From Flavobacteriales bacterium (GTDB lineage: Bacteria > Bacteroidota > Bacteroidia > Flavobacteriales_D > Crocinitomicaceae), in contig CANHHA010000013.1 of assembly GCA_947460825.1 (NCBI GenBank), forward strand, positions 1 through 64,000: a stretch of 64,000 nucleotides of DNA, read 5' to 3'. The number at the start of each line of letters is the position of its first letter. Position 1 is the stretch's first letter. Position numbers and translations under genes: made by a program. Shown piece after piece: positions 4,941 through 8,399 of this stretch. The notes beneath the pieces were generated by a model. It was not told the DNA's origin. It searched no databases and was given only the letters and a program-made list of their open reading frames with translations.

Positions 4941-5462
4941 TTAAAATGAGGTATGTCCTTGCCAAGGCCAATAAGGGTTAATCTTGCTTGATTCTTCCGA
5001 CCAAATCGATTTTTCTTTTTTTAATAGTATTTCCTTATATGGCCTATAAGAATTATGGAAAATGGTATCGGAAGGTTTTATGTATTTCTTGCTTAGTATT
5101 AATTCAATGGTATTTTTTTGTTCCTTCATGTGGGATAACCGTATGTTTTTTGACCCATAGGTTAATGCCCATTCCTTCATCGATTGAATATATTTTTCTG
5201 GAGTTTTGCTAAACACGACCACAGATTCAACTCCCAGGGAATCTTCAAAGTCAATAATTGAGGTGTGCGACAATTGGTTCTTCACACAGCCACTTGCCTT
5301 ACTTGGGTTAATATACTCAATCGTATATCCCTTTCTGTGTTGCTTGATGATTTCGTTTTGGTAAACAATGCAATCACATTCATTCATGAACCGATCACTC
5401 AATTCAGTCTGCTGACCGCAGGAAAAAAGCAGTAAGGATAAAACGCATAGCCTATATATCAT
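4941..5462 (-). CDS. hypothetical lipoprotein
   Basis: The 173-residue product starts with a short type II signal peptide (MIYRLCVLSLLLFSC) whose lipobox LFSC puts the lipidated cysteine at about residue 15. The mature part is mixed alpha/beta with cysteines at about 29, 31 and 59. I do not recognise a family. The gene lies 19 bases downstream of the Fur-family regulator stop codon, so the two may share a transcript, which would make it a possible member of the metal regulon; nothing in the protein itself proves that. Confidence 0.7.
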   Translation of the reverse strand: MIYRLCVLSLLLFSCGQQTELSDRFMNECDCIVYQNEIIKQHRKGYTIEYINPSKASGCVKNQLSHTSIIDFEDSLGVESVVVFSKTPEKYIQSMKEWALTYGSKNIRLSHMKEQKNTIELILSKKYIKPSDTIFHNSYRPYKEILLKKEKSIWSEESSKINPYWPWQGHTSF

Positions 5463-5481: not shown

Positions 5482-5871
5482 CTACGTGGCTTGACAACTC
5501 GGACATGTTCCAGAGATAGTCAAGAATAATTCTTTTATTTGGTAGGTGTCTGGCAGCTTAACATGAATCAATTGTTCTTCCAAACATTCGATTTTCTTGC
5601 AAGTAATACAGCTGAAATGTAAATGGTCATGTGCGTGCGTATGAGATTCATCGCAACTGGTGCAGCGCGCGTAATTTATTGTTCCATCGACATTGACTAT
5701 TTTATGAATCTTATTTTCCATTACCAGGCGATCTAATACACGATAAACCGTTACTCGATCGCAGGCGCCTTTAACCCGTTCAAAAATTTCGGGCTGACTT
5801 AACGCGAAGTCCGAGCTTGAAATTTCATGTAACACCGCCTGTTTTGCTTTAGTATTTCGAGGAATAGACAT
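5482..5871 (-). CDS. Fur-family transcriptional regulator, probably zinc-responsive (Zur)
   Basis: This 129-residue protein has the Fur-family winged helix in its N-terminal half (LSQPEIFERVKG..CDRVTVYRVLDRL) followed by the metal-sensing dimerisation domain. That domain carries a His-rich run HTHAHDHLHF and two CxxC pairs (CITC and CPSC) that would form the structural zinc site. It is slightly shorter than typical Fur (about 145-150), as many Zur-like proteins are. Its divergent neighbour is a ZnuD-like TonB receptor, and the 70-base space between them holds two near-identical palindromes. Together these favour a zinc sensor over Fur or PerR, but metal specificity is inferred. The regulator probably controls its own gene too. 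Confidence 0.88.
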   Translation of the reverse strand: MSIPRNTKAKQAVLHEISSSDFALSQPEIFERVKGACDRVTVYRVLDRLVMENKIHKIVNVDGTINYARCTSCDESHTHAHDHLHFSCITCKKIECLEEQLIHVKLPDTYQIKELFLTISGTCPSCQAT

Positions 5872-5884
5872 TTTTTTTACTTAT

Positions 5885-5899
5885 TGCAACAAAATTGCA
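5885..5899. promoter_or_regulatory. Fur/Zur-type operator, box 1
   Basis: The 15-mer TGCAACAAAATTGCA is an inverted repeat with TGCAA/TTGCA arms. It matches box 2 (5923-5937) at 12 of 15 positions. It sits upstream of the TATATTTG promoter box of the receptor gene and about 14 bases from the regulator's own ATG, so a bound repressor could act on both genes. Confidence 0.7.
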
Positions 5900-5909
5900 C
5901 TAAATATTT

Positions 5910-5917
5910 TATATTTG
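5910..5917 (+). promoter_or_regulatory. -7 promoter box of the TonB receptor gene
   Basis: TATATTTG fits TAnnTTTG exactly and lies between the two operator boxes. A TTG at 5884-5886, 23 bases upstream and overlapping box 1, could be the -33 element. Transcription would then begin near 5922, at the left edge of box 2. Confidence 0.65.
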
Positions 5918-5922
5918 CAAAA

Positions 5923-5937
5923 CGCAACAATGTTGCA
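5923..5937. promoter_or_regulatory. Fur/Zur-type operator, box 2
   Basis: CGCAACAATGTTGCA contains the perfect palindrome GCAACA-A-TGTTGC. It covers the predicted transcription start of the receptor gene, four bases before its first ATG, which is the position expected for a repressor that blocks initiation. Confidence 0.75.
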
Positions 5938-5941
5938 TTAA

Positions 5942-8200
5942 ATGATTTTACCAATGAAGCACGTGTTTTTATGTTATGTGTTATTTGTCTTGAACGGTTT
6001 CTTTCAAGGGCAATCACTAACCGTGCAGGTTTTTGATTCGATTCGCAATGTACCACTCGCAGATGCTACAGTGTATTGCGTGGAATACGACCAAACGGTC
6101 ATGACCAACGCCAGTGGAAACAGTGTTTTTCCGCTAAATGTGAACAGTAACCTCACCTTCAAGATCATAGCGCTCGGGTATAGAAGTGCGTTTTTTACCG
6201 TATTACAGGGTCAGAATGTTGTTCAAATACGGGTGTTGCCAGTTCACTTAGACATGCATGAGGTAACAGTTTCCTCCGGGTCGCTCATTCAATCCAATAA
6301 AAATCCCTTTCATATTGAATCTCAAAAGATGTCCTCGCTTGGGATGATTTCCAATCTAACCCTTGGTGAGGCATTGGCTAAAATTCCAGGAGTTTACAAC
6401 GCAGCTTTGGGCAATGGAATTTCAAAACCCGTGATTCGTGGAATGCAGGGCATGCGCGTGGTCACCTTATTGAACGGGTTGCGCTTAGAAGGACAACAAT
6501 GGGGCGGTGATCATGGGATTGGAATTACCAGTCTTGGCGTGTCTGCCGTGGAGGTAATCAAAGGTCCAGCCAGTTTGTTGTATGGTGCTGATGCCTTGGG
6601 TGGTGTTGTCTATTTGGTGGATGCTCCGTTTGCGCCCTCTAATGCACGTGCCTTGGAGTTTCAAACCGAAGGATTTTCTAATACCTTGGGAGGTAGGGCT
6701 CAATTTATTTATAAGGAATCGTACCGTAAATTCAGATGGTTTGTGGCTTCTACCTACTCTAATCATGCTGATTTTCAATTGCCTTCAGGTAAATTCGCGA
6801 AAAATTCACGGTTTAATGATTTTGGTGCCAAACTGAATATGTCTTACACCGGAAAACGGAGTTTATATTCCTTGCGTTACACGGCAAGCCATTCCGTTGC
6901 GGGTATTCCTGGGCATACCCATGATTCCTTGGCTACTCCGTTGACATTTCAAGTGGATGAACGAGAAAGAAGTTATGAACTACCTGCACAGTTTTTTCAG
7001 AATCATTTGCTGCAGGCAACTGCTAATTTTTATAGGGATCGATATGAGGTGATGGCCATGTATGGTGCTACGGTAAACCGTTTGATTGAATTTGATGAGA
7101 AAGTTACCATCCCATCCCTGAGTATGAATTTATCGAATCACTTGGTGCAAGTCAGGTGGCTAGTTAAATGGAATAAGTCGACGCGTCTTATCGCGGGTAT
7201 ACAAGCAATGCTGCAGCAGAATGTCAATGCCTTGAATGCTTCGGACACCTTAATTCCTAATGCGCAATCTGTTGATGTGGGAGGATATGTTAGTGTGAAT
7301 CACGAGCATAAAAAATGGAATCTTCAGGCAGGGATTCGGTATGACCGCAGGGCCATCTATGGCATCGATTTGCCCTTTCAAGAAAAGATGAGTTTTAATG
7401 GGTTAAATGGAAGTATCGGGGCGGTGAGAAGTTCTGAATCCATGGTATTTAGAACTTCTTTGTCCAGTGGATTTAGGGCCCCGCACTTAACCGAGCTATT
7501 TTCGAATGGGTATCATCACGGGGCACTCCGCTATGAGGTTGGGGAGACTTCATTAATTCCTGAAAAAGCAGTACAGTTAGATGTTACCATGGAGTGGAAT
7601 CAGGCACATGGTGCGTTGGTATTTAACCCCTTTGTTAGTTACATCAAAGATTACATTTATTTAGAGCCGATGGGAGTGTTATTCGATGGTATCCCGGGAT
7701 ATCGGTATGTTCAAAATAATGCAGTGTTGTTTTCTGGGTTGGATCTGTCTTATCACGTTCACCCGCATTTTGCGCACGGATTACATTGGGAAATTTCCCT
7801 TTCTTACCTGCATGTGAGTGCGCTGGGCGACAGTGCCGTTTCTATGATTCCTCAGCCGCGAATGCAGCATGTGTTGCGCTATGAATTTGAATCAAAAAAC
7901 TTCTTAAAAATCAAAGAGATAAACGTTCAATCAACCACCATGGGGCCTCAAAATAATGTGGCCTACCTCGAAACCACGTCAAAGGCTTATCATGTATTAG
8001 ATTTTTCCTTGGTTTTTGCTTTTGGTAAGGCAGATCAGTTTACTATTAAAGGAGGTGGGAGAAATGTCCTCAATGCTACGTATATCGATCATCTATCCCG
8101 CTTAAAAAACATTCAAATGCCCTTTCCGGGAAGAAATTTCTTCCTTGGTGTTGGATATAATTTCAATAGTAATTTTAAAAACAAACCATATGAAAACTAA
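5942..8200 (+). CDS. TonB-dependent outer-membrane receptor, ZnuD-like (probable zinc uptake)
   Basis: The protein has 752 residues from the first ATG, or 748 from the ATG at 5954, which gives the cleaner signal peptide MKHVFLCYVLFVL. A carboxypeptidase-regulatory-like beta-sandwich (about 26-105) precedes the plug domain (about 125-228, with IRGMQGMRVVTLLNG and VEVIKGPASLLYG) and a 22-strand-type beta-barrel. Histidine-bearing loop motifs (GQQWGGDHG near 191, GIPGHTHD near 321-328, and SNGYHHGALRYEVG in the barrel) resemble zinc receptors of the ZnuD type. Import would use TonB-ExbBD energy. Two Zur-like boxes flank its promoter. It overlaps the next gene by 11 bases. Zinc is inferred; another metal or a metallophore is possible. 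Confidence 0.9.
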   Translation: MILPMKHVFLCYVLFVLNGFFQGQSLTVQVFDSIRNVPLADATVYCVEYDQTVMTNASGNSVFPLNVNSNLTFKIIALGYRSAFFTVLQGQNVVQIRVLPVHLDMHEVTVSSGSLIQSNKNPFHIESQKMSSLGMISNLTLGEALAKIPGVYNAALGNGISKPVIRGMQGMRVVTLLNGLRLEGQQWGGDHGIGITSLGVSAVEVIKGPASLLYGADALGGVVYLVDAPFAPSNARALEFQTEGFSNTLGGRAQFIYKESYRKFRWFVASTYSNHADFQLPSGKFAKNSRFNDFGAKLNMSYTGKRSLYSLRYTASHSVAGIPGHTHDSLATPLTFQVDERERSYELPAQFFQNHLLQATANFYRDRYEVMAMYGATVNRLIEFDEKVTIPSLSMNLSNHLVQVRWLVKWNKSTRLIAGIQAMLQQNVNALNASDTLIPNAQSVDVGGYVSVNHEHKKWNLQAGIRYDRRAIYGIDLPFQEKMSFNGLNGSIGAVRSSESMVFRTSLSSGFRAPHLTELFSNGYHHGALRYEVGETSLIPEKAVQLDVTMEWNQAHGALVFNPFVSYIKDYIYLEPMGVLFDGIPGYRYVQNNAVLFSGLDLSYHVHPHFAHGLHWEISLSYLHVSALGDSAVSMIPQPRMQHVLRYEFESKNFLKIKEINVQSTTMGPQNNVAYLETTSKAYHVLDFSLVFAFGKADQFTIKGGGRNVLNATYIDHLSRLKNIQMPFPGRNFFLGVGYNFNSNFKNKPYEN

Positions 8201-8399
8201 CATGTTATTTATTGCTTTACTCGGGTTAATGGCGGGGTCATTCTCGGCGTGTAAAAAGAACAAATGTGAAGATTGCCATTACGACAAGGCTGGAGCCGAG
8301 ATTGAGCTTGGTGAAAAATGTGGAGATGAGATGGAGGGGTTAGAAGCGAATGGCTATACAGATACAACGGGTACGTATATTGTCCATTGCGGGCATTGA
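8190..8399 (+). CDS. small Cys/His-rich lipoprotein
   Basis: This 69-residue lipoprotein starts at ATG 8190, inside the 3' end of the receptor gene (11-base overlap, different frame), so the two are translationally coupled. The signal peptide ends in the lipobox FSAC with lipid-bearing Cys21. The 48-residue mature part holds Cys26, Cys29, His30, Cys44, His66, Cys67 and His69 (KCEDCHYD early and HCGH at the very end), a density that suggests metal binding. Its place behind a Zur-controlled receptor suggests periplasmic capture of zinc or a role in receptor function. The function is unknown. A longer frame exists upstream, but the signal peptide fixes the start. Confidence 0.75.
   Translation: MKTNMLFIALLGLMAGSFSACKKNKCEDCHYDKAGAEIELGEKCGDEMEGLEANGYTDTTGTYIVHCGH

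Follow-up and report, generated by a model that had tools for sequence, protein, structure and literature searches.

Twin palindromes between a zur-like gene and a ZnuD-like receptor gene are predicted Zur-type operators in a Flavobacteriales bacterium

Two palindromes lie in the spacer between a Fur-family gene and a divergent gene for a ZnuD-like TonB-dependent receptor in a 64,000-nucleotide stretch of DNA from a Flavobacteriales bacterium (the whole stretch is referred to as the window), and they are very probably the switch through which the divergent repressor controls both itself and the receptor. Comparison with relatives makes the palindromes predicted Zur-type operators. There is good reason for confidence that they are operators of the adjacent Fur-family regulator, likely a Zur, which would bind them, repress transcription from them and respond to zinc, with zinc as the presumed cargo of the receptor. 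The comparison provides a testable zinc-box consensus for Flavobacteriia and their relatives, and through it MerC and a small Cys/His lipoprotein, the genes of which are seldom tied to zinc, become candidates for zinc uptake. For the organism itself the picture is that of an ordinary, one-locus metal switch. The coordinates of the features are collected in Table 1.

Table 1. Predicted features of the zur-receptor locus in the window
Feature	Position	Strand	Basis or remark
zur-like regulator, divergent Fur-family protein, 129 aa	5482-5871	-	Pfam, best solved relative, predicted fold, conserved residues
Candidate operator 1 (zur-proximal), TGCAACAAAATTGCA	5885-5899	none	Position; kept in close relatives
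Predicted -7 promoter element of the receptor operon, TATATTTG	5910-5917	+	TAnnTTTG match; recurs between boxes in relatives
Candidate operator 2 (receptor side), CGCAACAATGTTGCA	5923-5937	none	Over the expected receptor transcription start, itself a predicted point
ZnuD-like TonB-dependent receptor	5954-8200 (ORF from 5942)	+	ZnuD 4rdr is best solved relative
Cys/His-rich lipoprotein-like protein, 69 aa, probably in the same operon as the receptor	8190-8399	+	Homologues adjoin receptor genes

Twin boxes in the divergent spacer

Between the minus-strand ORF 5482-5871 and its plus-strand neighbour 5942-8200 lie TGCAACAAAATTGCA, TATATTTG and CGCAACAATGTTGCA, in that order. Positions and identity were recomputed, and the description in the earlier note of two 15-bp inverted repeats that share 12 positions and flank TATATTTG was confirmed. 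The palindromes are identical at 12 of 15 positions and are separated by 38 bp from centre to centre; the first has 5-bp arms (TGCAA/TTGCA), and the second contains the perfect GCAACA-A-TGTTGC. The regulator-side box also overlaps, as had been proposed, a possible -33 TTG (5884-5886, 23 bp from TATATTTG), the overlap being two bases. The length of 70 bases originally given for the spacer holds between the ORFs as called, and the actual length is probably about 82 bp given a receptor start at ATG 5954; this start is probably to be preferred to 5942 because M5 was aligned in 15 of 15 compared sequences.

The consensus TGCAACAnnnTTGCA, which had been suggested for the box, was not the best description of it. 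The sites in relatives give TGCAACnnnGTTGCA instead, in which position 1 is often C and positions 3 and 6 are often T (128 sites, selected within 2 mismatches and many of them from one genus). Each box of the window has 1 mismatch among the 12 specified bases of the TGCAACnnnGTTGCA core and thereby conforms to the Desulfovibrio-type Zur box, and the two are the only sites within 1 mismatch of TGCAACnnnGTTGCA in the 64-kb window.

Sites within 2 mismatches of TGCAACnnnGTTGCA are near chance level in the organism's genome and barely exceed the control (91 versus 80), which would fit a reading of the palindromes as chance similarity in an AT-rich spacer. The probability of that reading is next to nil, as it is already refuted by conservation of the sites in close relatives; when ten close spacers were aligned, 25 of the 34 invariant columns fell in the boxes or in TTTTGCAAAnnTA. 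When the 70-bp spacer was shuffled base by base 200,000 times, at least one site (within 1 mismatch of TGCAACnnnGTTGCA) arose 3 times and two sites never.

Assignment of the regulator and the receptor

The regulator scored 22.0 bits against the Pfam FUR family, slightly under the cut-off of 23.1, and among the NCBIfam models those for the Fur and PerR equivalogs ranked above Zur, all far under their cut-offs. Its best solved relative is E. coli Zur (4mtd). An AlphaFold2 model computed from 31 sequences (pLDDT 83.5, pTM 0.75) has a predicted Fur-family fold: the 50 Foldseek matches listed included structures of Zur, Fur, PerR, Mur and Nur, with a best E-value of 7.8e-08, and the highest TMq among them, 0.74, belonged to DNA-bound E. 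coli Zur (4mtd_B). The zinc ligands of E. coli Zur are the structural residues C103, C106, C143 and C146 and the sensor residues H77, C88, H96 and E111, according to the available text of PMC4219657. The structural cysteines align with C88, C91, C123 and C126 of the regulator, which are invariant in the 31 sequences, as are H56 and C70, the equivalents of the sensor residues H77 and C88. H79, a near-invariant counterpart of H96, is present in at least 90% of the 31 sequences, and a clear counterpart of E111 was not found in the regulator alignments. A second Fur-family gene elsewhere in the genome, with 88.9 bits, scores more strongly than the regulator of the window. The window regulator is most likely the organism's Zur.

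The resemblance of the receptor to ZnuD, which had been recognised earlier, is supported by the search of solved structures, in which ZnuD 4rdr was the best relative (E 7.7e-13). TonB plug and barrel are present (PF07715 and PF00593, both above cut-off). The protein reached 105 bits against the NCBIfam ZnuD model, the cut-off of which is 950, and scored higher, with 130 bits, against its top NCBIfam model, a TonB haem/haemoglobin subfamily with a cut-off of 317; since both scores are under their cut-offs, the protein is named ZnuD-like and not ZnuD. The high-affinity zinc ligands of Neisseria meningitidis ZnuD are D99, H100, E340 and H499, as given in the available part of PMC4557270. Receptor residues D190 and H191 (numbered from 5942) align with D99 and H100, and H525 aligns with H499 in a stretch scoring merely 3.3 bits, while E340 falls outside the alignment and has no placement. 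This mapping assumes that the numbering of the 4rdr chain runs 14 ahead of that of the paper, an offset that all three positions fit. A difference from the meningococcal system is that the receptor of the window is followed by a small Cys/His protein.

These family scores, with the haem/haemoglobin subfamily above ZnuD for the receptor and Fur and PerR at the top for the regulator, would fit a reading in which iron, manganese, peroxide or haem is what the regulator senses and the receptor carries haem or iron, the boxes still being operators of the regulator. This alternative is improbable, and an iron or haem reading is ranked below the zinc reading. Among solved structures, E. coli Zur and ZnuD ranked first for the regulator and the receptor, and the second, stronger Fur-family gene is a better candidate for the response to iron or peroxide. 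The genes linked to the box elsewhere are COG0523, MerC and FolE, and of these COG0523 is placed in known zinc regulons in the available texts of PMC2770081 and PMC6103462, the link of FolE being looser.

Conservation of the boxes with the regulator

The proposal that the boxes are candidate operators of the adjacent Fur-family regulator gained its support from other genomes, where they recur with the regulator before zinc-linked genes in Flavobacteriia and their relatives. Named loci for the comparison were collected by the similarity of their proteins to the regulator, the best 80 of 96 being kept; the set is uneven, with 41 of the 80 loci from Chryseobacterium. A twin was defined as two boxes lying 34-42 bp apart, with no more than 2 mismatches in each. 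Upstream of the regulator, a twin was present in 61 loci, a single box in 6 and none in 13, and the spacing of the boxes in the 61 twin loci was 36-40 bp. Elsewhere in the 80 loci, 765,110 bp in all, there were only 2 such box pairs, and 200 shuffles of each of the 80 loci yielded no locus with a twin. By group, twins were found in 40 of 41 Chryseobacterium loci, in 1 of 9 Pedobacter/Nubsella loci (8 with none) and in 20 of 30 others (5 single, 5 none). One locus without a box before zur (L123) has two boxes 40 bp apart at a distance of 2.3 kb, between a COG0523 gene and a gene for a 773-aa protein, and this pair may be one of the 2 off-site pairs.

In further homologue loci, from which that of the window was excluded, a box with up to 2 mismatches was present within 350 bp in 16 of 29 and absent in 13 of 29, several of the genomes appearing to be the same as those of the named set. 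L008 and L009, both boxless, are fairly close homologues (46-47% identical to the window regulator), and most other boxless ones are more distant. The boxless regulator homologues of Pedobacter/Nubsella are L104, L105, L107, L108, L112-L114 and L122, and the gene ahead of the homologue in those loci presumably encodes a MoxR-type ATPase. In L010 (G039:C1) the regulator homologue is preceded by the related but differing palindromes TGCGAATATGTCGCG and TGCGACATATTCGCA, which may represent a variant box.

Regulator and box are thus not always adjacent, given the 8 of 9 Pedobacter/Nubsella homologues without an upstream box, and this would suit a reading in which the palindromes are operators of another DNA-binding protein and the Fur-family gene is merely one of its targets. 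Such a reading is very improbable, since the boxes recur beside the regulator across several families whatever the divergent gene may be, and the Zur box predicted in Desulfovibrio has an identical consensus (PMC545781, available text). Three genus-mates in which the receptor has no neighbouring zur, two of them with no regulator homologue found, also have no box near the receptor.

The exact motif was searched in 60 relatives' genomes, the organism's own included, and was found at 22 sites in 19 genomes, against 4 sites for a reversed control; there was none in the organism's own genome in this count. In 395 genomes of the phylum there were 148 sites in 101 genomes, against 30 sites in 29 genomes for the control, the number 101 being a program tally and the numbers 148, 30 and 29 tallied by hand. 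Exact-motif loci were opened in 49 cases (19 + 30, one per genome). A zur, MerC, COG0523 or TonB-receptor gene was present at 22 of these, 12 fell within unrelated ORFs, away from any gene start, and 15 were unclassified; the gene naming is partly circular, as the profiles were built from zur-adjacent genes, and three kinds were checked with Pfam.

Divergent partner genes and the receptor-lipoprotein module

Among the 61 twin loci, the divergent gene encodes MerC in 42, a TonB receptor in 6, COG0523 in 4, FolE in 1 and other proteins in 8, one of the last (L101) being receptor-sized. For MerC, CobW and GTP cyclohydrolase I, one or two genes apiece were verified with Pfam. MerC-family neighbours occur in L061, L064, L066, L069, L076, L183, L184, L186, L196 and L206. 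MerC is known as a mercury-resistance membrane protein, and its place as the commonest divergent partner in the named loci suggests a role in zinc uptake rather than in mercury resistance. In L061, L064 and L069 a gene for FolE stands behind the boxed MerC gene (Pfam check: L061). Besides COG0523, the alternative GTP cyclohydrolase FolE2 belongs to known zinc regulons in the available texts of PMC2770081 and PMC6103462; the box-linked cyclohydrolase is of the FolE type (PF01227) and not of the FolE2 type, and its zinc link is therefore looser. Predicted operators before zinc-acquisition genes, and often before the regulator's own gene, were found in relatives, and in the organism's own genome at this locus alone.

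The small lipoprotein-like protein has the motif CxxCHYD ... VHCxH, and the ORF 8145-8399, in which it is contained, matched neither a Pfam nor an NCBIfam family. When 295 genomes of the class were searched, the lipoprotein was present in 17, the organism's own included. Each of the five best homologues outside the own genome (L226-L230; E no higher than 1.6e-14) adjoins the 3' end of a receptor gene, and the receptors have the motif PGH(T/S)H in common with that of the window; none of the 13 weaker matches that were opened adjoins such a receptor. In two other genomes the receptor-lipoprotein module has a zur-like gene beside it, with two box sites 30 bp apart in one (L247) and one exact box site in the other (L248). 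The module occurs without a zur-like gene in the genus-mates G022, G660 and G020 (L244-L246, 7.5 kb each), and no box within 2 mismatches was found there; the protein search gave no regulator homologue for G020 or G022. A suggestion that these three genus-mates had kept the box in the absence of zur was rejected, as there was no box near the module. In L244-L246 the module is preceded instead by a His/Cys-rich protein of approximately 100 aa.

Promoter geometry and proposed mechanism

The element TAnnTTTG is the flavobacterial sigma-A -7 box, as described in the available text of PMC9723704. Its reverse complement CAAAnnTA, which would be the -7 box of the divergent gene, was present between the boxes in 57 of 61 twin loci, compared with a mean of 2.3 and a maximum of 6 in a shuffled control that is lenient, the box itself supplying the CA in most loci. 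The element takes in the final two bases of the distal box in 50 loci and starts six bases past that box in 7, as it does in the window. With its places fixed in this way, a dimer on the distal box would come to lie over the start region of the divergent gene. For zur itself no -7 box (TAnnTTTG) was recognised, the count of 6 in 61 twin loci being inside the shuffled range.

If the regulator works as a Zur, a zinc-loaded dimer would occupy each palindrome when zinc is ample. The dimer on 5923-5937 would cover the start region just past TATATTTG and block transcription of the receptor and lipoprotein genes, and the dimer on 5885-5899, beside the start codon of the regulator and at the -33 region of the receptor, would bring about autorepression and repress the receptor more tightly. 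Under zinc shortage the regulator would be released and the outer-membrane zinc receptor produced.

Extent of the regulon in the organism's own genome

The expectation that the box would define a wider regulon was not borne out, as a scan of the organism's own genome gave no further clear sites before metal genes. Because the own-genome check thus failed on the test set out in the earlier note itself, the support for the operators comes from relatives. Five sites in the genome are within 1 mismatch of TGCAACnnnGTTGCA, three of them inside ORFs and two being the boxes of the window. Fifteen of the 91 sites with up to 2 mismatches were opened, and all 13 of these outside the window were inside ORFs. 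The core of the consensus first suggested, GCAACAnnnTTGC, occurs without mismatch at nine places, and the seven outside the window are all in ORFs, one of them at the very start of its ORF. With 1 mismatch allowed, exact matches included, the pattern first suggested gave 94 and 89 matches by strand, against 69 and 89 for the control; 18 of the one-mismatch loci were opened, of which 17 were inside ORFs and one (L050; G000:C1, near 107000) was intergenic. The last contains the weak, half-matching GTAAATTTGTTGC directly before the second Fur-family gene, and it was not counted as a member of the regulon, having more than 2 mismatches from TGCAACnnnGTTGCA.

The relaxed consensus GCAAYnnnRTTGC was found at 20 places, against 12 for the control. 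All 18 of these outside the window are inside ORFs, and the visible regulon is therefore limited to zur, the receptor and the lipoprotein, so that in the own genome it is a single predicted intergenic region. The assembly consists of 73 contigs and is 98.2% complete, so a site may have been missed. Searches of the own genome with the ZnuA and MerC families gave no match, and the two genes for ZIP transporters in it are both without boxes. No COG0523 protein was recognised in the own genome; three CobW-family matches above the cut-off were rejected as COG0523 because they look like other protein types, and we take them to be a mutase-type protein, a MeaB/ArgK-type GTPase and an SRP-type GTPase.

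Relation to known systems

A Zur box, ATGCAACnnnGTTGCAT, was predicted in 2004 in two Desulfovibrio genomes (zur_D; PMC545781, available text). As here, the consensus is a TGCAACnnnGTTGCA-type palindrome, and it is linked to a Fur-family gene and to zinc uptake genes. In the Desulfovibrio case, according to the same text, the box precedes znuABC-zur, a single operon, and one site is given for each genome, whereas the window has two sites between divergent zur and outer-membrane receptor genes, and znuA was not found. E. coli Zur has, like the regulator of the window, a Fur-family fold, the structural Cys4 and the sensor H and C; it is a zinc-sensing repressor of uptake genes (PMC4219657, available text), a function in which the window regulator would by analogy resemble it. 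Two adjacent dimers of the E. coli protein bind one operator cooperatively, as reported in the same source, while the window has two separate 15-bp palindromes 38 bp apart and E111 is not clearly conserved. GTPases of the COG0523 family are described as being under Zur in the available text of PMC2770081, and here, similarly, the box precedes COG0523 genes in relatives; the window differs from that system in that no such gene was recognised in the own genome.

No report of a TGCAACnnnGTTGCA-type Zur box in Bacteroidota, and none of MerC under Zur, was found among the literature matches listed. The main text of PMC2770081, as available, contains no words beginning with Bacteroidetes or Flavobacter, and that of a 2018 review of Zur regulons (PMC6103462) no word beginning with Bacteroid or Flavobacter. 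A Bacteroidota Zur box was likewise not found in the available texts on R. anatipestifer (PMC11960050), B. thetaiotaomicron (PMC12596196), F. psychrophilum (PMC9723704), F. johnsoniae (PMC9976891), Chryseobacterium siderophores (PMC9989332), ZepA (PMC10957091) and ribosomal S4 (PMC3087516). The predicted Zur box consensus is already known from Desulfovibrio, and here it comes with a well-kept twin arrangement and an unusual neighbour, MerC.

A phylum-wide Zur system of Bacteroidota can be put forward only tentatively and is rather doubtful. It would comprise a twin-operator divergent promoter (36-40 bp, with a fixed -7 box) and a non-proteobacterial import kit, in which MerC would be the inner-membrane zinc importer and the lipoprotein would pass on the zinc of the ZnuD-like receptor.

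An ORF behind zur on the same strand (4941-5462 of the window) is without a Pfam or NCBIfam family; a similar ORF, absent in L098 and L101, is present beside zur in L094-L097, L099 and L100.
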